From Terrimicrobium sacchariphilum (GTDB taxonomy: Bacteria; Verrucomicrobiota; Verrucomicrobiia; Chthoniobacterales; Terrimicrobiaceae), in the NCBI RefSeq assembly GCF_001613545.1, contig NZ_BDCO01000002.1, positions 3,472,001 through 3,536,000 on the forward strand: a DNA stretch of 64,000 nt, given 5' to 3'. This document shows, piece by piece, positions 682-14,279 of the stretch. How positions within the stretch are numbered: position 1 is the first letter of the stretch; every line of letters starts with the position of its first letter. The notes below the pieces were generated by a model. The model made no database searches, was not told the DNA's origin, and saw only the letters and a list, made by a program, of their open reading frames with translations. A program made the translations under genes and the position numbers.

Positions 682-2133
682 CTATCGTACTCCAGGAAGT
701 AGCGCTGGCTCCGGGGATTCCATGGAAAACTCCGGCAACTCCGTGCGCTCACCATCCCATTTGACATAAAGCGAGTCGCCATTGGTTTCCATCAGTCGCT
801 GGAACCAGTAAGCCGACTCCTTCGGGATACGCTGTTGCGTCGCATAGTCGACATACACGAGGCCAAAGCGATGCTTGTATCCCTCGGCCCACTCAAAGTT
901 ATCGAGGATCGACCAATGGAAATACCCGCGCACATCCACGCCATCCGCCACCGCGCGATCGAGCTGGCGGAGATAGCGATTCAGAAAATCAATGCGCGCG
1001 TGATCACGCACGCGTCCATCGAGATCCACCCAGTCATTGAGCGAAAGGCCGTTCTCTGTCACGACGATCGGGAGCTTGTAGCGCTCAGCCAGGAACTTGG
1101 GCCCCCAATACAGAGACTCAGGAGTGACATTCCAACCAAAGTGGGTGTGCGCTCCGCCCTGCCCCGGCTGCACGATCTCGATGCGACCGTCTTCACCTGC
1201 CCGCACTTTTGTGCTCGAGTAGATATTGCAGCCGTAAAAATCCAGCGGCTGACAGATCGTCTCCATGTCACCCGGGCGGACCGTGGGTGCATTACTGCCA
1301 TAAGCCTTTAAACCCGCCTCGGGGTAATGCCCGAGAACGATCGGATCGGCAAACCAGGTGTTATTCCAGAGATTGTCAGGATACACCTCGGCCATTCCCC
1401 GCATCGCCGCGTCGGCATCCGCCGCGGAGTCCGTGGCTGGATGAAAAATGCAACCCACCGGCGCAAACCCAACGATCGGTTTCCGCTTGGCGCGCTCCCG
1501 GATCACCTGCACGGAACGCCCATGAGCCAGCATGGAGTTGTGCACTGCCAGGAGAACCTCCTTCATTCCCAGTTTCAGCCCAGGAGCATGCTCGCCGGTC
1601 AGATGCCCCATGCCGAGGAAGCACTGTGGCTCGTTCAGCGTCATCCAGTGGGAGACACGATCCGACAGACGGTCGACCACGAGGCGCGTATACTCTTCAA
1701 ACCAGGCTGGACTATCATCATTCAGCCATCCGCCCTGGAGGAACAGCTCATACGGATAGTCCCAGTGAAAAAGTGTCAGCCACGGCTGCAAGCCTGCGTC
1801 GAGCATGCAATCAACCAGGCGATCATAGAAATCCAGACCCTTGGCATTGGGCTGACCCACGCCGGACGGAATGACACGCGGCCAGGAGATGGAAAAGCGA
1901 TAGGCGTCAAAGCCCAGGCTCTGCATCAGCCGGATATCCTCCTCATACCTGTGAAAGTGATCACAGGCCTCCTTCCCCGTTCCCCCGGCCCAGATTCGCC
2001 CCGGTTGCGAAGTCATCATGTCCCAGACGGAAAGGCCTTTTCCCTCCGTATTCCAGGCACCTTCTATCTGGTAGGCGGCAGCAGCAGCTCCCCAAGTAAA
2101 GGAAGCCGGAAAAGAAGAGCGGGATGGGAACAT
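682..2133 (-). CDS. GH1 family beta-glucosidase
   Basis: The 483-residue product is a full-length glycoside hydrolase family 1 enzyme (usual length 440-480) with no signal peptide, so it is probably cytoplasmic. It would hydrolyse terminal beta-linked glucose or galactose from short oligosaccharides by the retaining mechanism. The acid/base glutamate is in the TLNEP motif (E168) and the nucleophile in VVTENG (E360). The glycone-binding pattern is also present: Q in AYQIEGA, H in LFHWD, and the WSILDNFEW block near the C-terminus. It is divergent from a GH1-AraC fusion that is clearly its paralogue. A secreted protein gene follows 19 bases downstream. The substrate cannot be fixed from sequence. 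Confidence 0.93.
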   Translation of the reverse strand: MFPSRSSFPASFTWGAAAAAYQIEGAWNTEGKGLSVWDMMTSQPGRIWAGGTGKEACDHFHRYEEDIRLMQSLGFDAYRFSISWPRVIPSGVGQPNAKGLDFYDRLVDCMLDAGLQPWLTLFHWDYPYELFLQGGWLNDDSPAWFEEYTRLVVDRLSDRVSHWMTLNEPQCFLGMGHLTGEHAPGLKLGMKEVLLAVHNSMLAHGRSVQVIRERAKRKPIVGFAPVGCIFHPATDSAADADAAMRGMAEVYPDNLWNNTWFADPIVLGHYPEAGLKAYGSNAPTVRPGDMETICQPLDFYGCNIYSSTKVRAGEDGRIEIVQPGQGGAHTHFGWNVTPESLYWGPKFLAERYKLPIVVTENGLSLNDWVDLDGRVRDHARIDFLNRYLRQLDRAVADGVDVRGYFHWSILDNFEWAEGYKHRFGLVYVDYATQQRIPKESAYWFQRLMETNGDSLYVKWDGERTELPEFSMESPEPALLPGVR

Positions 2134-2316
2134 GGGAAAAACGATTTAGGTTCGTCCTCAACTTAGCCGGTTTCCCTGCTCTTTATAGGGCTGTTCCTGA
2201 CAATTCTATTGCCATTATCCGACCTCCAGACATGCAGATTGCGCCCACCGGGCCGTTTGTTATCCTCTGGGTGCAGTTTCGCCCGCTGATCACGTACCAT
2301 CCTGGATTCCTCCCCT
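2134..2316. promoter_or_regulatory. Divergent promoter region of GH1 and the GH1-AraC regulator
   Basis: This 183-base spacer separates two divergent starts and should hold both promoters. Two similar direct repeats lie in it: TGCAGATTGCGCCC at 2233-2246 and TGCAGTTTCGCCC at 2272-2284, 39 bases apart. Direct repeats separated by about four helical turns are typical of AraC-family binding half-sites, so these are candidate operators for the adjacent regulator. No convincing -35/-10 pair was assigned. Confidence 0.35.
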
Positions 2317-4083
2317 ATGACTTTTCCCGAGCGTTTTGTGTGGGGCGCCTCCACCTCCGCCTACCAGATAGAAGGTGCCTGGAATACGGAGGGAAAAGGC
2401 CTTTCCATCTGGGACATGTACACTCGCAACGGAGAGCACGTGCGGGATGGCCACTCCGGGCGAGAGGCTTGCGATCATTACCACCGTGGCACGGAAGACA
2501 TCGCGCTCTTTTCGCAAATTGGCATCAACGCCTATCGCTTTTCCATCTCCTGGCCGCGTGTCATTCCCGCCGGGATCGGCTCGGTCAATAGAAAGGGCCT
2601 CGATTTCTACGATCGGCTCGTCGACAACCTTCTCGCCGCAGGCATCACCCCATGGGTGACTCTCTTCCACTGGGATCTCCCGTATGCACTCTTCCTTCAC
2701 GGAGGATGGCTCAGCCCGGACAGTCCTGCGTGGTTCGAGGAGTATGTCACCGCGGTCGTGCGCAGGCTCTCAGATCGCGTGCAGCACTGGGTGACACTCT
2801 CCGACCCCCAATGCTTTATCGGCATGGGCTACGGCACAGGGGAGCACGCCCCCGGGCTGAGGCTGGACCTTCCCGAGATCCTTCTCGCCAGTCATCATGC
2901 CCTGCTCGCACATGGAAAGTCCGTCCAGGCGATCCGCGCCCATGCCCGTACCCCAGCCTCGATCTGCTGGTCGCCTTCAGCCACCATTTTCTATCCCTAT
3001 ACGGACTCTCCAGCTGACACCGAGGCCGCACGTAAAGCGACCTTCTCCGTCTTCCCGGAAGCAATCTGGAACAACACCTGGCTGAGCGATCCCGTAGTGT
3101 TTGGCCGGTATCCCGAGGACGGCCTGCGCGCCTATGGCGCTGCCGTGCCCAAGATTCGCAGCAAGGACATGGAGACCATCCATCAACCCATCGACATCTA
3201 CGGCTGCAACATCTTTCAGGGCACCCCGGTAAAAGCCGGACCCGACGGCCTGCCCATGGCTGCTCCGTTTGCGCCCGGCCACGCAGAGACCGCATGCTCA
3301 TGGAAACAAACTCCCGAGGCGATCTACTGGGGCCTGCGTTTCCTCAACAAACACTATCAATTGCCCGTGGTCATTACGAAGAATGGCATCGCCAGTGCCG
3401 ACAGCCTGAGCCTCGACGGAAAGGTCCACGACGCCGCTCGTGTCGACTTCCTGAACAGCCACCTCCTCCAGGTGCGTCGCGCCCTCCAGGATGGCATCGA
3501 CGTGCGAGGGTATTTCTATTGGTCGGCAATGGACAATTTTGAGTGGCAAAACGGCTATTCCCGTCGCTTCGGTCTTATTTACGTCGACCACAGTACCCAG
3601 CGGCGCAGCCTGAAAGAGTCGGCCATCATGTATCGCTCGGTAATCACCTCAAACGGTGGAGAACTTGACACCTTTCTCCCAGCTAATGACGAGCAAATGC
3701 CCTTTCTCGTGAAGGAGGCCATTCGATACATCCAGGACAACCTCGCAACTCAATTCACCATCCGCGAACTGGCCACCACCCTGCGCTGCCACCCGGATTA
3801 CCTTGGCCGGAAGTTCAAGCAGCATACCGGCGTGGAGCTCGGTCTCTACATCCGACGCGCGCGAGTCGACCAGGCGAGGGAACTACTGAAGGATCACCAC
3901 AAGACCATCGACGATATCGCGGAAGACTGTGGTTTCACCGACAGAATCCACTTTGCCAAGGTCTTTAAGAAGTTGACGGGAGACACCCCAGGCAAATACC
4001 GCCGCATCTTGAATACGCCAGCCACTTCATCACCCCTCTGGGCAAATCTGAAAGCCAAGGACCTTCCCCCTCTACCGGCATAG
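2317..4083 (+). CDS. Transcriptional regulator: catalytically dead GH1 domain fused to AraC-type HTH
   Basis: The 588-residue protein joins two domains. Residues 1 to about 445 are a complete GH1 beta-glucosidase fold, close to the divergent GH1. Residues about 461-570 are an AraC/XylS-type double helix-turn-helix (starting near MPFLVKEAIRYIQ, second HTH near IDDIAEDCGFTDRIHFAKVF). Both catalytic glutamates are lost: TLNEP has become TLSDP (S162, D163), and the nucleophile motif ITENG is ITKNG (K355). Sugar-contact residues Q17, H118, W402, E409 and W410 remain. AraC regulators normally carry a small cupin or other sensor N-terminally. Here a dead enzyme appears to be the sensor, binding a beta-glucoside without cleaving it and controlling the divergent GH1 operon. 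The fusion and substitutions are read directly; the sensing role is inferred. Confidence 0.9.
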   Translation: MTFPERFVWGASTSAYQIEGAWNTEGKGLSIWDMYTRNGEHVRDGHSGREACDHYHRGTEDIALFSQIGINAYRFSISWPRVIPAGIGSVNRKGLDFYDRLVDNLLAAGITPWVTLFHWDLPYALFLHGGWLSPDSPAWFEEYVTAVVRRLSDRVQHWVTLSDPQCFIGMGYGTGEHAPGLRLDLPEILLASHHALLAHGKSVQAIRAHARTPASICWSPSATIFYPYTDSPADTEAARKATFSVFPEAIWNNTWLSDPVVFGRYPEDGLRAYGAAVPKIRSKDMETIHQPIDIYGCNIFQGTPVKAGPDGLPMAAPFAPGHAETACSWKQTPEAIYWGLRFLNKHYQLPVVITKNGIASADSLSLDGKVHDAARVDFLNSHLLQVRRALQDGIDVRGYFYWSAMDNFEWQNGYSRRFGLIYVDHSTQRRSLKESAIMYRSVITSNGGELDTFLPANDEQMPFLVKEAIRYIQDNLATQFTIRELATTLRCHPDYLGRKFKQHTGVELGLYIRRARVDQARELLKDHHKTIDDIAEDCGFTDRIHFAKVFKKLTGDTPGKYRRILNTPATSSPLWANLKAKDLPPLPA

Positions 4084-4226: not shown

Positions 4227-6074
4227 TTAGTCGCGGCGCCGACGGCGAGCGAAGAACGTAACCATCAAACCCGCACCGAGCAGGGCAAAGGTCGTCGGCT
4301 CCGGAACCACCGAAAAGGTCAGGCTCCCGGCATTCAGACCAAAGGTACCAGTGAGTCCGTTGGTCAGATTGGTGTAGGAAAAATCACTCACCGAGAATCC
4401 CGAACTGCTGCCAAAGGTCATGAGCGTATAGGTATTCCCCGCCGCACCGCTGCCAAGGAAGTCAAAGGCAAAGACCGATCCGCTTTGTTTCGTCAGGATG
4501 CCCGATCCGAGCGCGAGGCGATCAGAGGTGGCCGACGAGCCCTGACCCCCGACATTGCTCAGATCAAACTTCATCTGCGCAAACGCACCGCTGGTTTCAC
4601 CATTCCAGCTCAGGTTAGTGGCCGTCAACGTTCCAATACCTCCATCACCCGGAGCAATCGCACCACCTGCAAACACCGTAAAGACGCCCGCCATGGAAGG
4701 CGAGTTACCGCCAAGTGTACCACCACTATTTACCGTAACATTGCTAGTGGACGATTTGGAACCATTGATCAGCATGGTTCCGGCATTGACTATGATGCCA
4801 ACACCGTTGGAACCGGTGATATTTCCATCGAAGACAAGAGTCCCAGTTCCCGCCTTCGTAACATCCCACCCGGAATTACCACTCCACGCGTTTTTGAAAG
4901 TGACCCTCGTATTGTTGTTTACGGTCCAAGTCCTAGCCCCACCAACACTGACGGTACCAGTTCCAGCGAAGGTCAAATTTCCCTTTCCCGTGGTATCTCC
5001 TTCAGTTGCACCGAATCGAAATCCAAAATTACCCGATCCAAAAGCCAAGGTGTTATTTATTGTCCGGGAATTATTATCTGTCGACAAAAGAGCAGAGCCG
5101 CCATTCATCGTCAGCGTGCCGGTCCCCAACCCATTGTTAAGACCAGTGCCTAGCGCTACCGTTCCGGCGCCAATCGTAGTCCCTCCCGTAAAGGTATTAT
5201 TACCATTTAGGACAAGTGTACTTACTCCGCTGGTCTTCGATATTTTTCCAGATCCCGTAATGTTTCCGTTTATCGTAATGACAGATGTCGCCGTATTCGC
5301 AGCATTCAAGGTCGATGATGCCGCTACCAAACTGATATTGTTGTTCCCAATCGCGTTCGTAGTCCAGACGTCCAGGGTACCGCCATTCACGGTCACGCTG
5401 CTGAGCGACGAGTTAGCCCCGGAGAGCGTCAGCGTTCCAGCATTGACCACCACGCTACCCAGCGAAGAGTTGGCTCCGGAGAGCGTCAAAGCACCAGCAT
5501 TAACCACCGCATTCGAGAAGACATTAGTGCCGGCAAGAGTCATCGCTCCAGCACCCACAGTGACAGTTCCCGTGAAGGTATTGTTTCCAGAAAGGGTAAC
5601 CGTTCCGGAACCAGCTTTCGCGAGCCCCTGATTTCCGGCCACTGGAGCCAAGATCGTAGCGGAGGAATTATCCACAGTGATCGTCGGGGTCCCAGCGGAG
5701 GTCTGCAATGTCAATACCTGCGACGCCAGGCGATTCACCGTCCAGGTATTGTAGGCCGTAGGACTCAGCGCGGTATCACCAAAATAGAGATTACCGACGG
5801 TAATATCCTCGGTCAGCGTGACCGTCCGGTTTGCAGTAATGTCGATGGTGTTAAAATACGCGCTGGCACCTGTTCCCGAGGCAACGGTTCCGCCCTGCCA
5901 TGGGTTCCCGTCCTGAGTGTTCCAGTTCCCGTTCCCATTCAATATCCACGTTCCATCCGTCGCCAGAGCCTGGGATGAACCAACAGCAAGAGATCCAATC
6001 AGCGAGAGCGCAGCTATTCCTCGAGAAAGCGCAGAAAATGGTATAGTCATACGACGTGGGGAGGGAGGATTCAT
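4227..6074 (-). CDS. PEP-CTERM surface protein with autotransporter-type beta-strand repeats
   Basis: The 615-residue exported protein has a signal peptide (hydrophobic run near residues 20-37, ending ALATDG). A long Gly/Thr/Asn/Ser-rich body follows, with repeated units such as NAGTLTLSGANSSL and the linker type LAKAGSGTVTLSGNNTFTG, typical of autotransporter-associated beta-strand (PATR) repeats that fold as a beta-helix. The C-terminus is a PEP-CTERM sorting signal: VPEPTTFALLGAGL, a short membrane span, then RRRRR. The family is cleaved and surface-anchored by exosortase. There is no outer-membrane barrel domain. ATG 6050 (MTIPF) is an alternative start. The gene is divergent from the GH16 gene, suggesting a surface role in polysaccharide handling. 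Confidence 0.9.
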   Translation of the reverse strand: MNPPSPRRMTIPFSALSRGIAALSLIGSLAVGSSQALATDGTWILNGNGNWNTQDGNPWQGGTVASGTGASAYFNTIDITANRTVTLTEDITVGNLYFGDTALSPTAYNTWTVNRLASQVLTLQTSAGTPTITVDNSSATILAPVAGNQGLAKAGSGTVTLSGNNTFTGTVTVGAGAMTLAGTNVFSNAVVNAGALTLSGANSSLGSVVVNAGTLTLSGANSSLSSVTVNGGTLDVWTTNAIGNNNISLVAASSTLNAANTATSVITINGNITGSGKISKTSGVSTLVLNGNNTFTGGTTIGAGTVALGTGLNNGLGTGTLTMNGGSALLSTDNNSRTINNTLAFGSGNFGFRFGATEGDTTGKGNLTFAGTGTVSVGGARTWTVNNNTRVTFKNAWSGNSGWDVTKAGTGTLVFDGNITGSNGVGIIVNAGTMLINGSKSSTSNVTVNSGGTLGGNSPSMAGVFTVFAGGAIAPGDGGIGTLTATNLSWNGETSGAFAQMKFDLSNVGGQGSSATSDRLALGSGILTKQSGSVFAFDFLGSGAAGNTYTLMTFGSSSGFSVSDFSYTNLTNGLTGTFGLNAGSLTFSVVPEPTTFALLGAGLMVTFFARRRRRD

Positions 6075-6420
6075 ATGCAGTCACTCTACTCCAAATCCCT
6101 CAACCGCATAGGCTCACATCCGATCCAATATATGCGTTTTTCCGACATTTCCGTTTTCCGATAACCGCCCCCTCTCCGCAGCTTTCAACCGACCAGAGAA
6201 ACGGAGCCAAACCCAGCGCGGATGCCGCTCCCAGGAAATTTTCACAACATACAAAACATGGGTCTTCTAGAGACGCGCGCGCGTTTAAGACATTTTGCGC
6301 ACGCTAAGAAAAAGGTAGAATATTTTCCCTAAGCGGATATTTACCAAATGTGCTATCGGTTATTTCGATAGCAGACCTCACCGCCTTCCCCGCGCGTCGC
6401 GACCGAAGGCATTCAAGACA
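6075..6420. promoter_or_regulatory. Divergent promoter region of PEP-CTERM protein 1 and GH16 gene
   Basis: The 346-base spacer between divergent genes holds no credible ORF. It is locally AT-rich at 6300-6370 and contains a perfect 8-bp inverted repeat at 6351-6373. Both promoters must lie here. Confidence 0.5.
6351..6373. promoter_or_regulatory. Perfect palindrome upstream of GH16 gene (candidate operator)
   Basis: TGCTATCG and CGATAGCA are exact inverted arms around a 7-base spacer. The site is centred about 59 bases upstream of the GH16 start, a position suited to a dimeric regulator or a 5' UTR hairpin. Confidence 0.4.
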
Positions 6421-7872
6421 ATGTTCCGCCCATTCCTTTCAACCCCTATGAAGACTACCCGACGTTTTTCATGCCCTCCGGGAGCGATCCTGCCCGCTCT
6501 CTTCATCGCCATCGGCATCCCGCTTCTCCCTGCCGAAAACATATCCCCCGAGCAGATCCAGGCTCTCCAGACGGATGCAAAAGCCGCCAGCGAAGCAATC
6601 TCCCAGGTGGCTCAAAAGACCGACAATGATGACGTCAAAAAAGACGCCCAAACCGCTGGCGATGCCGTAGGGCGCATCATTGCCGAGCTCGACAAACACG
6701 CCGCCAACGCGACCGCCAGCACAGACATCTATGACGGCGGCAAGAAATACCCGCCGATCGCCAACGTCTCCATCAAGAGCTTCAATGTGCCTACCGGCTC
6801 CACCGAGATCCATGTGCCGGTCACCATGGACAAGCCCAGCGCCAACACGGTGATCGCCTACGTGCGCGTGTTCAACGGCCAGGGAGGCCGAGCCATGCCC
6901 GACGCAACAAAGCCGGTCATTTTCCGACCAGGCGATCAGCTCACGAAGACAGTAAGCTTTGATGTCTCCGGCATGAGCGAGGGAAACAATGTGAAGGCCA
7001 TTCAGCCCTCCGTCCCCGATGGCGCCAATCGCCAGGGCGGTGAAATCCTCATCACGGCGGCAGCCGACGCGACCAACGAACCGATCGAAGACACCAGCCG
7101 CCAGCCGCTCAAGTTTGAGCCTCTCGGGACACTCTCCTACTCCGGCACGGGCGAAACCATACAATATGACGACAAGGGAGGACCAAACACCTTTTCCACC
7201 GCCCTGTCGCATGGCCGCACCCAGGTAGGCAATGGCGAGACCGGCTATTACGGCACGGTCGACATGGGAGGCCTCAGCCGCACCAGCGAGGGGCTCGTCC
7301 TCTCCTCACGCCGTTTGGACAAGCCCATGGAGGTCGGCGCTCCTGCGATGTACTACCCTTTCCTCGCCACGATGCTCTCTGGCCACAAGATGCCGGAGAC
7401 CTGGTTCAAATACGGCAGTGTCGAATGGGTGGTCAAGATGCCCAACCGCAAGGGTTCGTGGCCAGCCCTGTGGCTGGTGCCCACCGGCGGATGGCCCCCG
7501 GAAATCGATGTCTATGAAGGATTTGGCTACAATGGCTCCTGGAAGTTTGATTCCGATCTCTCGACAAACCTCCATGGTGGAAAAAACACCATCCGCACCT
7601 TCACCCGCCCCGCAATGAACATGAAAATGCGCACTTTCGGGCTGGAGGACACCCTTGATAGTGACTTCCACACCTTCGCCGTCACGGTCACGGAGGAATG
7701 GATCACCATGTTCATCGATGGCGTGGAAACCATGCGTTATGCCAATCCATTCAAGGGCCAGACATGGTATCCGCTCACCAATGTCGCCGTAAAAGCAGAC
7801 CCCAAGTCTGATTACTCTGACGGATCAGGCGACATGATCCTGCGAACGCTCAAGGTCTGGCGCGCCGAGTAG
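6421..7872 (+). CDS. Secreted GH16 family glycoside hydrolase
   Basis: The 483-residue protein has an N-terminal signal (hydrophobic run AILPALFIAIGIPLLPA), a low-complexity Ala/Asp-rich helical region up to about residue 100, a beta-rich domain, and a C-terminal concanavalin-like GH16 domain from about residue 220. The catalytic EIDVYE motif (pattern ExDxxE; E361, D363, E366) is intact, preceded by WPALWLVPTGGWPP. GH16 enzymes are retaining endo-acting hydrolases of laminarin, lichenan, agarose, carrageenan and related glycans; the exact target is not clear here. ATG 6448 (MKTTRRFS) is an alternative start that fits a signal peptide better. The gene is divergent from a PEP-CTERM protein and followed by a terminator and pseudopilin cassette 1. 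Confidence 0.88.
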   Translation: MFRPFLSTPMKTTRRFSCPPGAILPALFIAIGIPLLPAENISPEQIQALQTDAKAASEAISQVAQKTDNDDVKKDAQTAGDAVGRIIAELDKHAANATASTDIYDGGKKYPPIANVSIKSFNVPTGSTEIHVPVTMDKPSANTVIAYVRVFNGQGGRAMPDATKPVIFRPGDQLTKTVSFDVSGMSEGNNVKAIQPSVPDGANRQGGEILITAAADATNEPIEDTSRQPLKFEPLGTLSYSGTGETIQYDDKGGPNTFSTALSHGRTQVGNGETGYYGTVDMGGLSRTSEGLVLSSRRLDKPMEVGAPAMYYPFLATMLSGHKMPETWFKYGSVEWVVKMPNRKGSWPALWLVPTGGWPPEIDVYEGFGYNGSWKFDSDLSTNLHGGKNTIRTFTRPAMNMKMRTFGLEDTLDSDFHTFAVTVTEEWITMFIDGVETMRYANPFKGQTWYPLTNVAVKADPKSDYSDGSGDMILRTLKVWRAE

Positions 7873-8264
7873 CTGAATCCCCCTTGTTACCGGGAGTCAA
7901 AAGCTCTCAGAGCCAATATACCGGGCCGTTCTCCACGATCTTTTCGGGGGGAACGGCCTGTTTCATCAGGGAGGAATGGACCTTTGAGCAGGCGTTGCAA
8001 AATCCGCCTGAAGGAGCGATAATTCAGGACGCGCCGATGCAATCTCGCCCCCGGGATCTCCGCACCTCCAAGGAATACCGCATTCTTCCCGCAGCATGGA
8101 AAGTACGTCATACCTCCCATCGCCCGCAAAAAAGTGGCGAATTTCTGATCTTCAGGGGGCAAATGTCTGGAAACCGCATAATTTTAGTCAGATTTCCGCT
8201 AACAGCTTCACCAAAAGCGACCTATTGTTAGCAGTATCACCCCTAACGCGATCTGCCCGACAAT
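7873..8264. other. Intergenic region between GH16 gene and pseudopilin cassette 1
   Basis: The 392-base stretch carries a strong hairpin just after the GH16 stop and a 7-bp inverted repeat (GCTAACA at 8198-8204, TGTTAGC at 8226-8232) about 50 bases before the cassette start. The small open frames in it lack coding character. It probably holds the cassette 1 promoter. Confidence 0.5.
7924..7958 (+). terminator. Hairpin downstream of GH16 gene
   Basis: An 11-bp stem with a single G-U pair (7924-7934 with 7948-7958) closes a 13-base loop and is followed by TGTTTC. It lies 52 bases after the GH16 stop and probably ends that transcript. The T-run is weak. Confidence 0.5.
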
Positions 8265-8744
8265 ATGTTCGCAAAATCCCTCCCCAATTTCTCGAAGTCC
8301 GCCAAGGCATTCAGCCTCATTGAGGTCGTGCTCGCTCTCGGCATCGTTTCGTTTGCCATGATGGCCGTCGTCGGCACCCTGCCGGTCGGCCTCAGGTCGT
8401 CCCAGCAATCCCGCAGCCAGATCGCCGCAGCCAATATCGCCCGCCAGATCCAGGGCGACCTGCAACAGATCTCCTTTCAGAACACCAGCACCGATGCCCT
8501 GACGATCGAGAAGCTGCCTAACAATCCCTTTTACTTCAGTCAGGACGGCACTCGCTCGGAGGAACGCGATGCTTACTATGTCGCCAACTTCACGCTGAAC
8601 CAGGTCACCGCACCGGGTCTCTCCGTGAACTCCTCCAACGCCCGTAGCGTGAAGGTAAGCATTACCTATCCCGCCGGTGTCGCCCAGGCCAATCGCCAGG
8701 AGGTCGTGTACTCGCTCCTGCTGGCGAAGCAAAAGAACGACTAG
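8265..8744 (+). CDS. Pseudopilin, Verru_Chthon cassette protein B-like (GspI-like)
   Basis: The 159-residue protein has a type IV prepilin leader: a basic N-terminus, then KAFSLIEVVLALGIVSFAMM, with cleavage expected before F and the conserved Glu five residues later, followed by the hydrophobic helix. It would be processed by prepilin peptidase and inserted in the inner membrane. The FSLIEVVLALGI pattern and length resemble the minor pseudopilin GspI and the uncharacterised 'Verru_Chthon cassette protein B'. It is first of four tightly packed genes (B-C-D-A; 11-base gap to the next). Its role as one subunit of a pseudopilus tip is inferred from resemblance. Confidence 0.82.
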   Translation: MFAKSLPNFSKSAKAFSLIEVVLALGIVSFAMMAVVGTLPVGLRSSQQSRSQIAAANIARQIQGDLQQISFQNTSTDALTIEKLPNNPFYFSQDGTRSEERDAYYVANFTLNQVTAPGLSVNSSNARSVKVSITYPAGVAQANRQEVVYSLLLAKQKND

Positions 8745-8755
8745 CGCTGAAGCGC

Positions 8756-9799
8756 ATGCCCTACAGCACCCCCATTGTCGCGACCCGCAAGGCGTCCGCC
8801 TTCACTCTTGTGGAGTTACTGGCGGCCACTGCGGTCTTCATCGTGCTCCTGGGCATCATCCTCGCCGTCACCAACTCGATCTCCGCCACGATCCGCCATG
8901 CGACATCGGGCATCGAGGCGCAGTCGGCATCACGCACCGGATTTGACCTGATGAACCGTTATCTCTCCCAGGCGACGTTGAATCCCTACTGGGACTATGA
9001 CAACCCCCTCGCGCCCACGGTCTATCTGCGTCAGTCAGATCTCCAGTTCATCATCCGGCAAAACAAGCAAAAGGCATCCTATGGCCAGGAGGTGTATTTC
9101 GTCACACCCGAGGCTTACTCAAAGGACTCCACCCTGCGGGCCACCCGCGGACTGATGAATGCCTGCAGCGCATTTGTCCGGTTCGGCAGCAGCAAGGACT
9201 TTCAGCCCTCTGGCGTGGGCAATGAGAAATTCCGTTATCGGTTGATGTTTGGACTGCAACCTACCGAAGACCTCAGCGTCTTCAACAAGCCCGCTCGCAC
9301 CAGCAACCAGACTGAATCCGCCTATCGCGCCGCGATCCAGCAGTATTGGAATGCCGCGGCATGGCTGACGCCGATCAGCGACTCCGATTCGAAGCCTGCA
9401 GTGACTCCCCTCATCGACAACGTCATCGCACTCATCGTCTGGCCGCGACTCTCCTCCGCCGAGGATGCAACCGGACAGGAATTGACGACCGACTATTCCT
9501 ACAACTCGCAGGACAACGCCATGACGATCCCGCAGCCGATCACAGCGAATCAACTGCCTCCCGTCATCGACATCACCATGATCGTCATCAGCGAAGCCTC
9601 GGCCGCCCGCCTGGACCGGGGATCCTCAACCGCACCGCAGGAGATCGAGTCTGCGCTGGCTGGGAAGTTTACCCAGGTCGAGAAATACCAGGACGACATT
9701 GCCCAGGTTTCCAAGGCTCTCTCGGACAAGGGAATAGAATTCAAAATCTTCAGCACGGCGCTGCCGCTTCGTGAGTCCAAGTGGAGCCGATCCCAATGA
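8756..9799 (+). CDS. Pseudopilin, Verru_Chthon cassette protein C-like (GspJ-like)
   Basis: The 347-residue protein has a prepilin signal (ASAFTLVELLAATAVFIVLL; cleavage before F, Glu at +5) and one N-terminal membrane helix. A long periplasmic domain follows, with motifs shared by the cassette C proteins near 27.8-28.8 kb and 54.9-55.8 kb: FDLMNRYLSQATLNPYWDY near the N-terminus and a late TDYSYNSQ...QLPPVIDITMIVI block. It resembles GspJ, the largest of the I/J pair of type II secretion minor pseudopilins. Its TGA overlaps the ATG of the next gene in the ATGA configuration, indicating translational coupling. Confidence 0.82.
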   Translation: MPYSTPIVATRKASAFTLVELLAATAVFIVLLGIILAVTNSISATIRHATSGIEAQSASRTGFDLMNRYLSQATLNPYWDYDNPLAPTVYLRQSDLQFIIRQNKQKASYGQEVYFVTPEAYSKDSTLRATRGLMNACSAFVRFGSSKDFQPSGVGNEKFRYRLMFGLQPTEDLSVFNKPARTSNQTESAYRAAIQQYWNAAAWLTPISDSDSKPAVTPLIDNVIALIVWPRLSSAEDATGQELTTDYSYNSQDNAMTIPQPITANQLPPVIDITMIVISEASAARLDRGSSTAPQEIESALAGKFTQVEKYQDDIAQVSKALSDKGIEFKIFSTALPLRESKWSRSQ

Positions 9800-10383
9800 G
9801 CCGCCCATCCTGCAATCTCGGGTACGGTCAGGCGTTCTCCCTCGTCGAGCTCCTCGTGGTGATGGCCATCATCGGGCTGCTCGCGGTGATCACCGTGCCC
9901 GCGATGTCTTCGCTCATGCAGAGCAGCGACCTGACCCGCGGCGGCCAGTTGGTCGCCGATCAGGTGAACCTCGGCCGCCAGACCGCATCTTCACAAAACA
10001 CCGTCGTCGAGTTACGTTTCATCAAGATCGCCGGCCGCAAGGGGTACGCTGCCGCCCAGCTTTGGCGGCCCGACGACAGCGGGCAGATGATCCCCTCGCG
10101 TCGCATCGTCACCCTGCCGCAAAGCGTCACCATCGCGGATAATTCGCTTTCCTCCGCCATGACCGACCTGGCCTCGGGCACCATGACCGTCGGCGGAGCC
10201 TCGACGGCCTACCGTGCACTGCAGATCAGGCCGTCCGGGGAGATCACCCCCATCGTCGCAATGAGCAATCTTGTCTTTACCGTCATCCCGGAGGTCTTCG
10301 CGGACAAACAGGATATGCCTGCCAATTATTTCATGGTCCAGATCAATCCCGTAACTGGCATACCCCTCGTCTATCGCCCATGA
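9796..10383 (+). CDS. Pseudopilin, Verru_Chthon cassette protein D-like (GspH/FimT-like)
   Basis: ATG 9796 overlaps the stop of the previous gene (ATGA) and is preferred to an in-frame GTG at 9781. The product of about 195 residues begins with the prepilin sequence QAFSLVELLVVMAIIGLLAV (Glu at +5) and then has GspH/FimT features: VADQVNLGRQTASSQNTVVELRF near the N-terminus and a C-terminal YFMVQINPVTGIPLVYRP. The ending closely matches the D protein of cassette 2 (WFAVQIDSLTGAVQTFRP). Its own stop overlaps the ATG of the A gene. Confidence 0.82.
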   Translation: MSRPSCNLGYGQAFSLVELLVVMAIIGLLAVITVPAMSSLMQSSDLTRGGQLVADQVNLGRQTASSQNTVVELRFIKIAGRKGYAAAQLWRPDDSGQMIPSRRIVTLPQSVTIADNSLSSAMTDLASGTMTVGGASTAYRALQIRPSGEITPIVAMSNLVFTVIPEVFADKQDMPANYFMVQINPVTGIPLVYRP

Positions 10384-13300
10384 AACGGTCGCTCGACTTT
10401 CCATCATCCCCCGCAGCATTCCGTACGGCACGGGGCTCCGCGCTCATCGCCGTCCTCGCCATCATCGTCCTCCTCGGTGCGCTGGTAACGATTTTCCTCG
10501 TCCGTACGGGCACGGAACGCTCGGCCTCAGCCAGCTATGATGCTGCTGCCAGCACCCGCCTCCTGGCCGAATCTGCTGTGAATCTCGTCCAGGCTACGAT
10601 CAACGAGGCCACCACAGGCACCGGCTCATCAACCTGGGCCTCGCAGCCTGGTGCCGTGCGGGTTTTCGACGACGCGGGCAATCTCACCAAGATCTACCGC
10701 CTCTACTCGAGCACGACCATGTCGACGGCAACCAGCAGCGGCTCCATCCTCGCCAACGACATTCCTCCCGTAAACTGGGCCAGCCAGCCAGCCGTCTGGG
10801 TCGACCTGAACAAACCCGTCACCATTTCAGGTTTTGGCAATACCAAGTCTCTCAGCTTTCCCATTCTCGACCCTCGCGATCCCAAGAGTCCCGGCTCAGC
10901 CACAAATCCCAGCGTCCTCTCGACCCTCGATGGATTCTCCATCAGCGGCGCTCCCGGTGCCACCCAGCTCCAGCCTGCCCCGATGCCCGTACGCTGGATG
11001 TACATGCTGCGCGATGGCACGATGGTCACTCCCTCCTCTCCATCCGGATCGACCGTGACCATCTCCGGAGCCACGAAGGAAAATCCCATTGTCGGGCGCG
11101 TCGCCTTCTGGACCGATGACGAAACGACCAAGGTAAACGTCAATACCGCCTCCGGCAGCATCGGCAAATGGAATGGCACCGCCGCCTTGGCTGCACCGTG
11201 GGATGTCCCTCGTTTTCGCATGCTGGACGACGTCAACCTGTTCTCCCGCAACCAGCCGGTGCAGGGCGAGTATCAGCGCTACCCCGGGCACCCTGCGACC
11301 ACCGACCTCTCGAAGATCTTCACCGCGCTCGGCATGCCCATCGGTGATTATCCGAACACGCAAACCGCCGCCGCCACCTCGTCAAGTTTCTTCAGCCTCC
11401 TGCCCCGCTATGATGACCAGTACGGGTCAAAGGGAGGAACAGTCGATACCACAAAGTCCAACACTCCCACTACGATCACTGCCAAGAACGACCGCCTCTA
11501 TACTTCTCCGGGCGAGATGTTATTCCGCCCCGATCGCACCCAGAACCCCGGGAGCGGCGCTTCTGTGACCCAGCAGCAGGTCGAGACCGGCAAGTTTCTG
11601 CTCACCAGTCACAGCCGCGCTCCGGAGACAACGCTCTTTGGCACACCGCGAATTGCGGTCTGGCCGATTGACTCGGAGTACGGAGCCAATCCCACCCCTA
11701 CGAACAACACGAAGCTCGTCACTCCCTTCGACAAGCTCATCGCTTTCTGCTCATCGACCGGAATCGGCTCGGCCATCAAGCAATACTATATCCAGCGTCA
11801 CGACTCCACCAGCCCAACCAACGACTGGTCGCAAATCACTCGCAATCGCCAGCTTTACAGCTACCTCCAAAGTCTGACAGGGCGGAATATCCCGGGCTTC
11901 GGCGGAACCTTCTTGCAGAAATACAGCTATCCCAACGAAAGGGACCAGATCCTCACCGAGATGGTGGACTATATCCGCTCCACAAATGTCTATGACCACT
12001 CGGTCAAGGACGCCAGCTCGAGCAACCCGACCGTGCGATTCACTCCGCCGATTACTACTGCCGTCTCCGGCGGCGGACAGGTCGTCCCGCTGCGTATTGG
12101 CGCGACCCAGGGGCTCGGCCGCATGTACACCATCTCGGAAGTCGCGCTGCTCCTGATCAGCACCGCCGATGGAAACGGCGATCCGAGTAATGAGTATGAC
12201 CCCCGCACCAGAAGCAACAACATCACCGACAAACCCAACCCCACTCTGGCCGACACCTACGATGGCACGAAAATCCTGCTGAATCCCGGTGAAAAACGCC
12301 TCCAGGCGATGATCCTCATCGAGCTCAACTCCCCCATGCTCGGCTTTGACACGATGATGCCCGACGTCAGCATCAACATCCGCGACCTGAACAATGTGAA
12401 GTTCACGACGTCCGCCGGGTTAGTCAAAAGCCCGTTTCCCTCAGGCGATCTCCTGACCGAAGGCCCCGCCACGCGTTACAATGACATCATCCAGATGGGC
12501 GGCCTGAATGGCTTTCAGTATTTCATGTCCCGCGTCGACTGGAACGGAACCAATTATCGCCGCAACGGCTGGAGCAATTCTTCCACCTCGTATCTTCCTT
12601 ACCGCTTCGTCAGCAACCCCTTCACTGTTCCGACAGCCGCCGACGGCAGCGGCACGGTCACCCTCAGCACCAGCGGGAATTTCGTTGCCGAGATCATGGT
12701 CAAGGCCAAGGGCACCAGCACGCGCCGCGTGGTCCAGACCTTCCAGATCTCCTTCCCCTCCATCACCCTGCCACTGCCTGACCTGATCCAGACCACCACC
12801 GCTGGCTCCAACACTATGGGGGATTGGTGGGGATTTGATAAACGCATCGAATGGGCCCCACAGAGCCCCGGGTCCACCACAGCCGCAGGCAAAGGTGCCG
12901 TCATCCGCACTGATGCCACGGGCATCCCCGACAGCTCGACGGCGGGCGGCTACAGATCGGACGTCGTCCGCAGCCTCGCTGCCAAGGATGGCGATGTCCG
13001 ACTGATCATGGCCAAGGAGACCGTCACGGCTGACGGCACCAAGGACATGGTCACCACGCCGGGCTACAGCTCCGGGGCAAAGCTGGCCCATACGCTCATG
13101 CAGGCCAAGGCATCCAATCTCGTGCCGGGCGTCAATCTCAGCGGCAAGCTGGTATCGGGAGCAGATTACGAACCGGCCTGGACTCCCAAGGTGCCAAGCA
13201 CGTCAACGCCCGCTGCAGACTGGGATTGGGACACCGGCCTCCCTGGCTCACGGGATGGCGCCTACGCCAACAAGCCCGATGAGGGCAACATTTACACTAG

Positions 13301-14279
13301 CTCGGGAGCAGCGCCCTACTACAACGGCGAACAACAGTCCAACAGCACCAGTTCGAGCGTCGCCAGCTACTTCACGGCCAATCGCATCATCCCTTCGCCG
13401 GTCATGTTTGGCTCGCTGCCGACGGGCGTACAGGAAGGCGTCCCATGGCGCACGCTTCTCTTCCGTCCACAAGCCAGCCGCCCCCGCGATCCATCAGGTC
13501 CGAAGGACCATTTGCTGCTGGATCTCTTCACCATGCCGGTCGTGGAGCCTTATGCGATTAGCGAACCCTTCTCCACCGCAGGCAAGGTCAACATGAACTA
13601 CCAGATCGTGCCGTTCACCTATATCGATCGCAGCACCGGCGTGCGCGCAGTACTGGGCTCCGAACTCATGGCCCGAGTGCCCAAGGCAGCTGCTCAGAAA
13701 AATGGCAACCAGACGGGGCACAATTACTATAAGATGCCGTTTGGTTCCGTCCCCGGCGCCAACGCACAGCCTCCCAGCGGCCCAGCGCTCGGCAGGCTCC
13801 CGCTGAACCTGAGCGACAGCAATGGCTCCCTCCGTCAGTTTAAAGAGAAGTTCGCCCAATGGGACATCTTCCGCTCGCCGTCGGAGATCTGCGACATCTA
13901 CCTCGTCCCGCAAGGTTACTCCTGGGCCTCCAACTCAGTTGCCGATGCTGGATGGTACGGAGATGACTTTGCCCTCGTAGGCGACAATGTCCGGGAGCGT
14001 CCCTACGCCGACATCTATCCACGCCTCACCACCAAATCGAATACCTTCACCGTCCACTACACCGTCCAGGCTCTGAAGAATCCTCCGGCCAATGCTCCGG
14101 ATAAATGGACCGAGGGCAAAGGCCAGGTCGTGGGAGAGCTCCGTGGATCGGTCACACTCGAGAGATTCCTCGACCCCGCCAATACCAATATCCCCGACTA
14201 CGCCGCCAACCCCTCGGCGCCTAATCTCGACAACTACTATCAGTGGCGCGTGCTGGAGAATTCCACCTTCTCGCCCTGA
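10380..14279 (+). CDS. Very large pseudopilin-like protein, Verru_Chthon cassette protein A (GspK-like)
   Basis: The 1299-residue protein starts with a GspK-type N-terminus: RGSALIAVLAIIVLLGALV, a prepilin-like helix lacking the usual Glu at +5, as in GspK and PilX. The large exported part shares blocks with cassette 2 protein A: GRVAFWTDDETTKVNVNTAS (residues about 240-257), SYLQ.LTGRNIPGF, ERDQILTEMVDYIR, MFGSLPTGV.EG.PWRTLLFRP, EPYAISEPFSTAGK and ERPYADIYPRLTTKSNTFTVH. GspK is usually about 320 residues, so this form is about four times larger and probably carries an extra periplasmic domain. The start overlaps the D stop (ATGA). It likely caps the pseudopilus tip, by analogy with GspK. 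Confidence 0.82.
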   Translation: MKRSLDFPSSPAAFRTARGSALIAVLAIIVLLGALVTIFLVRTGTERSASASYDAAASTRLLAESAVNLVQATINEATTGTGSSTWASQPGAVRVFDDAGNLTKIYRLYSSTTMSTATSSGSILANDIPPVNWASQPAVWVDLNKPVTISGFGNTKSLSFPILDPRDPKSPGSATNPSVLSTLDGFSISGAPGATQLQPAPMPVRWMYMLRDGTMVTPSSPSGSTVTISGATKENPIVGRVAFWTDDETTKVNVNTASGSIGKWNGTAALAAPWDVPRFRMLDDVNLFSRNQPVQGEYQRYPGHPATTDLSKIFTALGMPIGDYPNTQTAAATSSSFFSLLPRYDDQYGSKGGTVDTTKSNTPTTITAKNDRLYTSPGEMLFRPDRTQNPGSGASVTQQQVETGKFLLTSHSRAPETTLFGTPRIAVWPIDSEYGANPTPTNNTKLVTPFDKLIAFCSSTGIGSAIKQYYIQRHDSTSPTNDWSQITRNRQLYSYLQSLTGRNIPGFGGTFLQKYSYPNERDQILTEMVDYIRSTNVYDHSVKDASSSNPTVRFTPPITTAVSGGGQVVPLRIGATQGLGRMYTISEVALLLISTADGNGDPSNEYDPRTRSNNITDKPNPTLADTYDGTKILLNPGEKRLQAMILIELNSPMLGFDTMMPDVSINIRDLNNVKFTTSAGLVKSPFPSGDLLTEGPATRYNDIIQMGGLNGFQYFMSRVDWNGTNYRRNGWSNSSTSYLPYRFVSNPFTVPTAADGSGTVTLSTSGNFVAEIMVKAKGTSTRRVVQTFQISFPSITLPLPDLIQTTTAGSNTMGDWWGFDKRIEWAPQSPGSTTAAGKGAVIRTDATGIPDSSTAGGYRSDVVRSLAAKDGDVRLIMAKETVTADGTKDMVTTPGYSSGAKLAHTLMQAKASNLVPGVNLSGKLVSGADYEPAWTPKVPSTSTPAADWDWDTGLPGSRDGAYANKPDEGNIYTSSGAAPYYNGEQQSNSTSSSVASYFTANRIIPSPVMFGSLPTGVQEGVPWRTLLFRPQASRPRDPSGPKDHLLLDLFTMPVVEPYAISEPFSTAGKVNMNYQIVPFTYIDRSTGVRAVLGSELMARVPKAAAQKNGNQTGHNYYKMPFGSVPGANAQPPSGPALGRLPLNLSDSNGSLRQFKEKFAQWDIFRSPSEICDIYLVPQGYSWASNSVADAGWYGDDFALVGDNVRERPYADIYPRLTTKSNTFTVHYTVQALKNPPANAPDKWTEGKGQVVGELRGSVTLERFLDPANTNIPDYAANPSAPNLDNYYQWRVLENSTFSP

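Follow-up and report, generated by a model that had tools for sequence, protein, structure and literature searches.

A crippled beta-glucosidase as the putative sugar sensor of an AraC-type regulator in Terrimicrobium sacchariphilum

Can a bacterium keep an enzyme that has lost its catalytic residues as the sensor of a transcriptional regulator? The question is raised by a gene at positions 2317..4083 (+ strand) of a 64,000-nucleotide stretch of the Terrimicrobium sacchariphilum genome, hereafter the window. An initial annotation had proposed that this gene joins a full but dead GH1 beta-glucosidase domain to a C-terminal AraC double HTH, and that the enzyme was recruited as a ligand-sensing domain.

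The gene is a single open frame of 588 residues and its composition is as proposed: Pfam PF00232 (Glyco_hydro_1) matches the presumed sensor at residues 2-447 (2320..3657, +; 468.8 bits) and Pfam HTH_18 matches the AraC double HTH at residues 485-563 (3769..4005, +; 75.1 bits). At E <= 0.001, Pfam returned only these GH1 and AraC HTH domains in the protein, with no sigma or anti-sigma domain; an N-terminal PocR sensory domain was likewise absent in this domain search. An AlphaFold2 model, computed from 18 fusions aligned with 8 solo GH1 proteins (26 in all), reached a mean pLDDT of 86.4 and a pTM of 0.75, with helices at 463-566 corresponding to the double HTH region and low confidence in loops 169-180. 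In VIA-align comparisons, which cover residues 1-452, the Ks5A7 beta-glucosidase overlays the GH1 part with a Z of 55.5 and an rmsd of 1.6 A over 449 residues.

Both catalytic glutamates are indeed replaced. The acid/base site reads TLSDP (N162S, E163D; codons of S162 and D163 at 2800..2805, +) and the nucleophile site ITKNG (E355K; codon of K355 at 3379..3381, +), the lysine being found in the window protein alone. The residues Q17, H118, W402, E409 and W410, which the initial annotation had listed as retained, are all present. Without either glutamate, the protein still passes the NCBIfam beta-glucosidase equivalog TIGR03356 (504.5 bits, cut-off 478.5), so that an automatic label of active enzyme is likely.

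Such losses could in principle reflect an error or a gene in decay. The genome of strain NM-5T (4,751,807 bp, three contigs) was obtained at 425x read coverage (PMC5532833), which makes a sequencing error at E355K unlikely; the change was seen in one genome only. For the GH1 part, dN/dS was 0.075 between the window fusion and that of LR76 (dS 0.98), and 0.033 and 0.051 between a second fusion of the same genome and those of LR76 and SCN18, respectively; the corresponding HTH values were 0.060, 0.004 and 0.012. Among the solo GH1 proteins, the dN/dS for LR76 is void (wrong start, 8 and 30 codons) and the window-SCN18 comparison is saturated in dS. These ratios indicate that the GH1 domain of the fusions is under purifying selection and, together with the open frames, they rule out a pseudogene or a frame error. 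A decaying chimera without function, to which the unique E355K might point, is thus extremely improbable, given the open frame, the low dN/dS in both domains and a family of 26 members.

Active-site changes across the fusion family

We searched 387 genomes of the phylum, 384 of the class and a species collection (best 80 of 311 matches), and found 26 distinct GH1-AraC fusion proteins in 19 genomes (own count). All fusions with a name or a placeable kinship belong to the Verrucomicrobiota, other phyla being covered by the one scan of the species collection and its best 80 of 311 matches. The fusion-bearing group consists of soil and water bacteria.

The loss of both glutamates is not a family trait: it occurs in 1/26 fusions, the window protein, and was rejected as a general feature. 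Seven fusions have one or both glutamates replaced. E163D is found in six (the fusion of genome G517 plus five from the same genus as the window) and substitutions of E355 in two (K in the window protein, Q in L044), each site requiring two changes on the tree. The initial annotation had named homologues with intact catalytic residues and real hydrolase activity as evidence against its reading, and half of this was found, because 19/26 fusions keep both glutamates.

What the family does share emerged from a tally of eleven GH1 active-site positions. At least one of them is altered in 26/26 fusions, whereas any deviation was seen in 1/101 solo GH1 proteins in a first alignment and in 2/105 in a second, where one case is likely misaligned (solo L113, with Y300I in the second alignment and Y in the first). 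The tally of 101 solos, from which three fragments or duplicates were left out (pieces of L003, L001 and L009), includes partly incomplete rows, no more than 3 of the 101 being gapped at a scored position. The common change is Y300F, present in 25/26 fusions and in 0/101 stand-alone proteins; its codon lies at 3214..3216 (+) in the window. The sole fusion lacking it, L056, carries N298S instead. Y300F is missing from the initial annotation. We equate Y300 with Y295 of Thermotoga maritima BglA, the second tyrosine of NYY, by means of a 159-residue BglA stretch identical to PDB 1od0, with a tag offset of 22.

The effect of this substitution has been described in active enzymes. The T. maritima BglA mutant Y295F is reported to be "hydrolytically crippled", with a kcat 85-fold lower on pNP-glucoside and increased self-condensation (PMC9113129), and a second paper describes H. 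orenii Y296F as likewise impaired (PMC4803828). Both mutants are reported to remain weakly active and to be more prone to transglycosylation; Agrobacterium Y298F is mentioned in both papers as a similar case. By analogy with what is reported for such mutants, Y300F, the family's common lesion, would cripple GH1 hydrolysis rather than abolish it.

The pocket itself is kept. Q17, H118, W119 and W410 are invariant in 26/26 fusions, and W402 and E409 are found in 25/26. One fusion, L043 (G048:C27), has both glutamates, but W402S and E409D alter its sugar contacts and may point to a different ligand. Judging from PDB titles, GH1 glutamate mutants have been solved with sugars bound (8wn5, 8wn6, 8ivy). 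It could be argued that the GH1 domain is a mere dimerisation scaffold and that the regulator senses no sugar, all the more so as sugar binding by the fusions is only predicted and loops 169-180 of the model are of low confidence. This is unlikely, however: a mere scaffold would not need a pocket, yet the contact residues are kept in 25 to 26 of 26 fusions, and the GH1 dN/dS of 0.033-0.075 is low.

A stronger challenge is that most fusions are trigger enzymes, that is, slow but working beta-glucosidases that cut their substrate and report it, the window protein being a late and fully dead derivative. The 19 glutamate-intact fusions and the residual, transglycosylating activity ascribed to Y295F and Y296F are in line with this proposal, which we regard as a serious contender although the balance tips against it: Y300F is carried by 25/26 fusions, E163 and E355 were additionally lost (two changes each on the tree), and an intact enzyme adjoins many fusions. 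Catalysis and regulation in one protein would thus be possible for the 19 glutamate-intact fusions and unlikely for the window protein.

LacZ forms allolactose, and by the same logic the GH1 domain might make the inducer itself, Y300F favouring transglycosylation to a signalling disaccharide. The raised transglycosylation reported for the two mutants is what one would then expect; but the normal mechanism is impossible in the window protein, which has neither glutamate, and the tolerated losses would be left unexplained, so that we consider this very unlikely.

Origin of the two halves

In a tree with 40 solo GH1 proteins, computed with the trait columns removed, the GH1 parts of the fusions form one clade (97/98), and 22 solo proteins, including the immediately divergent neighbours of fusion genes, form a separate one (98/95); the tandem GH1 neighbour in G506 (L059) falls outside the latter. 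In a wider tree of 122 rows, which left out the L003, L001 and L009 pieces and the L012 fragment, the 22 fusions then known and 19 solos of the divergent-neighbour type were recovered in one clade (SH-aLRT 95). These trees suggest that the GH1 half most likely goes back to a duplicate that arose in the divergent beta-glucosidase's own lineage.

The fusion HTHs also form one clade (85/81), which shares a larger clade with six PocR-AraC regulators (99/96). Several independent fusion events are therefore unsupported, with a single clade for each half. L056, whose Y300 may be either kept or regained, is the first branch among the fusions in the HTH tree, whereas the GH1 tree places it next to L144 (90/71). 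Behind the HTH, a conserved NPRS or NPR tail closes many of the fusions, which the window protein does not have; in the alignment used here (A1), the L039 row starts late.

A PocR-AraC regulator, with a PocR domain and HTH_18, is encoded in the Terrimicrobium genome at C2:301606-302583 (L136:2604-3584, - strand of L136), where it sits among GH16, GH42-like, GH1 and PEP-CTERM genes with candidate binding sites. When it was compared with 18 genomes, 13 of them with a fusion, the fusion HTHs matched it at 107-150 bits and 44-60% identity, whereas other HTH-only matches reached at most 67 bits among the matches listed. Outside the fusions, the closest HTHs belonged to PocR-AraC orthologues, again among the matches listed; full-length orthologues at least 47% identical were listed for 6/13 fusion genomes, including Terrimicrobium, and the best full-length-like match listed for the five fusion-free genomes was 30% identical. 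Because of this kinship, the origin of the fusion looks like a sensor swap, in which a PocR sensor went out and a duplicated enzyme came in.

Candidate operators and presumed targets

The fusion gene is flanked by an intact GH1 beta-glucosidase gene, transcribed divergently (682..2133, -) and carrying TLNEP and VTENG, as the initial annotation had noted. On the other side lie a gene for a surface protein with PATR repeats and a PEP-CTERM signal (4227..6074, -), a gene for a GH16 protein of the endo-beta-glucanase type (6421..7872, +; Pfam GH16 46.4 bits, NCBIfam EglC-like below cut-off) and a Verru_Chthon pseudopilin cassette (8265..14279, +) with genes B (8265-8744), C (8756-9799, below its cut-off), D (9781-10383) and A (10380-14279), all on the + strand. 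The first three are presumed targets of the regulator and the cassette is a possible one. A further GH16 gene lies just left of the window. Near a fusion in L041, and again in the Terrimicrobium cluster at 286-306 kb, there are genes for GspK-like proteins of 1186-1254 residues. We found nothing useful on the Verru_Chthon cassette in the open-access literature.

This arrangement recurs. A solo GH1 gene is immediately divergent at 12/26 fusion loci, including LR76 with its start taken from its homologue; elsewhere it stands in tandem (L167), divergent at 4.4 kb (L044) or on the same strand at 4.6 kb (L166). GH16 proteins are encoded at 17/26 fusion loci against 6/56 control loci, a count that is favoured by the profile, built from 7 proteins of which 6 come from fusion loci; a genome with fusions contributed two of the control loci (L073, L091). 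The second Terrimicrobium fusion (L038:5941-7716, - strand of L038; C2:2716310-2718025), 74% identical to the window fusion, adjoins a quinolinate phosphoribosyltransferase gene, with a divergent MFS transporter gene beyond a 233-residue gene; no GH1 or GH16 gene was found at this locus.

AraC sites are direct repeats about two helix turns apart. A 36-bp direct repeat, with CYGAY half-sites 22 bp apart, is common to stretches upstream of fusion genes, and Gibbs sampling gave 19.1-24.3 bits over 8 runs on the real set, the best of which was taken, against 14.4-15.0 for five shuffled sets, each represented by the best of its 3 runs; since the genomes behind the motif are related, part of this information reflects shared descent. 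The repeat lies within 370 bp upstream of 15/26 fusion genes (L042 being measured from a re-read start codon). In the window, three candidate operators are found: between the divergent genes (2188..2223, +; top-ranked in the window when the full matrix is used), between the PATR/PEP-CTERM and GH16 genes (6111..6146, +) and just before the Verru_Chthon cassette (8165..8200, -). With a matrix built without the Spartobacterial sites, over 127,930 positions, 6111-6146 ranks first, 8165-8200 second and 2188-2223 seventh, so that 2188-2223 has diverged furthest. The scoring matrix was built from 14 sites, and none of 2.16 million reversed positions scored as high as the threshold used, 18.7. This score is reached at 21/26 fusion loci, at 7/12 loci outside the training set and at 0/56 control loci; at one of the five fusion loci below it, L139, a pattern match lies in the gap that separates the divergent genes.

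At the scale of the Terrimicrobium genome, the 27-bp core with at most 3 mismatches occurs twice, each time directly before a fusion gene, the two upstream sites being almost identical. A looser pattern gave 8 matches (reversed control, 0): at both fusion promoters, at 6120-6146 of the window, four over a 19-kb stretch that holds GH16, GH42-like, GH1, PocR-AraC and PEP-CTERM genes, and one inside an ORF (C2:388210), which was set aside, similar strings recurring in fusion-free genomes. Across 236 genomes of the class, which are related and hence not independent, 34 matches fell in 8 fusion genomes (1-8 each) and 49 in 228 others (at most 2 each), whose fusion-free status rests on three candidates scored per genome. 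When sites within 2 kb of fusion genes were excluded, 25 remained in the 8 fusion genomes, or 3.1 against 0.21 per genome. Candidate sites are thus enriched in fusion-bearing genomes; one of these, G517, had been chosen by its pattern-match count before its fusion was found.

These sites might serve a different AraC protein, such as the PocR-AraC regulator, rather than the fusion: PocR-AraC orthologues have the closest non-fusion HTH among the matches listed, and in Terrimicrobium there are sites around the PocR-AraC gene. Two observations make this improbable. G048 has 5 pattern matches, yet its best PocR-like match among those listed is 28% identical, and the 27-bp core is confined, in the Terrimicrobium genome, to the promoters of the two fusions, of which the second is encoded far from the PocR gene.

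A putative sensor and its place among known regulators

All together, these comparisons favour, with a probability of about 0.7, a reading in which the product of 2317-4083 has a crippled beta-glucosidase as its sensor and, as a one-component activator responsive to sugar, controls a beta-glucan regulon. The sequences show that a GH1 enzyme akin to the divergent neighbour was joined, in one clade, to a PocR-AraC-like double HTH. Y300F is nearly family-wide; the window lineage further lost the acid/base (E163D) and the window protein alone the nucleophile (E355K), with the sugar-contact residues kept. Retention of E409 in GH1 proteins is a mark of specificity for non-phosphorylated glucosides; E409 being kept, the ligand is probably a non-phosphorylated beta-glucoside, and the GH16 company favours disaccharides released by GH16 beta-glucanases and imported intact, of the laminaribiose, cellobiose or gentiobiose type. 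In most members the pocket would turn it over slowly, in the window protein not at all, and the bound sugar would promote a protein state acting at the 22-bp-spaced repeats. The genes so activated would be the divergent GH1 gene and the fusion gene itself, together with further GH16, surface-protein and pseudopilin genes. Members of the AraC family as a habit activate transcription, and activation rather than repression is assumed on this basis; like sugar binding, DNA binding and the ligand class, it is inferred.

The proposal of an enzyme recruited as a probable sensor is supported by the divergent pairs (12/26), the direct repeat between the genes and the kept pocket, but not in the form given, the loss of both glutamates holding for 1/26 fusions. 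Several points count against the reading favoured here: the 19/26 fusions with both glutamates could be enzymes, the second fusion's locus has MFS and quinolinate phosphoribosyltransferase genes in place of GH1 or GH16, site 2188-2223 drops to rank 7 without the Spartobacterial sites, 5/26 loci do not reach 18.7, and the sister clade does not include the GH1 gene in tandem with the G506 fusion.

A search for a GH1-AraC regulator found none in the open-access literature, and one for GH39-AraC regulators found nothing useful there; the claim that no regulator of this architecture had been described agrees with that literature, which cannot prove absence. With the AraC/XylS regulators (AraC, RhaS/RhaR, MelR) and the PocR-type AraC proteins, the fusion shares the same-family double HTH and, as a candidate operator, the conserved direct repeat with AraC-like spacing; it differs in that a whole GH1 enzyme domain takes the place of a cupin-like or PocR sensor. 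With GH1 beta-glucosidases such as T. maritima BglA and Ks5A7 it has in common the complete fold and the sugar-contact residues, but the fusions have the catalytic tyrosine (25/26) or glutamates (7/26) replaced and a DNA-binding domain added.

Two kinds of regulator resemble the fusion most: those derived from enzymes, and sigma or anti-sigma proteins that carry GH domains. The former include the ROK repressors NagC and Mlc, yeast Gal3 beside Gal1, and trigger enzymes; in these, too, a metabolic enzyme or its duplicate senses the pathway and catalysis is lost in part of the family, but the folds and, in bacteria, the DNA-binding domains are different, and the fusions stand apart by a single conserved Tyr-to-Phe cripple and an enzyme relative often next door. 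The latter include the RsgI anti-sigma factors, which carry GH domains. ECF52 and ECF53 sigma factors and anti-sigma proteins with carbohydrate or GH domains are described in PMC10766802 and PMC8999054. As in the fusion, a GH or sugar-binding domain is part of a carbohydrate-responsive regulator, but RsgI and the ECF52/ECF53 proteins are described as membrane proteins working via sigma factors, whereas the fusion is a one-component protein with its own HTH.

In the glutamate-intact members, Y300F might even create a long-lived sugar-enzyme complex, perhaps a covalent glycosyl-enzyme, that is itself the signal, its slow breakdown acting as a timer, the Terrimicrobium branch having later become a pure receptor; we regard this as a long shot. 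If true, the family would form a series from enzyme to kinetic sensor to receptor.

For the organism, the fusion may tie beta-glucan use to PEP-CTERM surface proteins and Verru_Chthon pseudopilin cassettes at the level of regulation. For annotation it is a trap, an equivalog model for beta-glucosidases being passed by a protein devoid of catalytic glutamates. For the family, the intact neighbour, the Y-to-F cripples with both glutamates and the members without acid/base or nucleophile would make up a natural series from enzyme to receptor, and since the enzyme relative and the candidate operator often adjoin the fusions, the path from catalyst to sensor is open to residue-by-residue testing.
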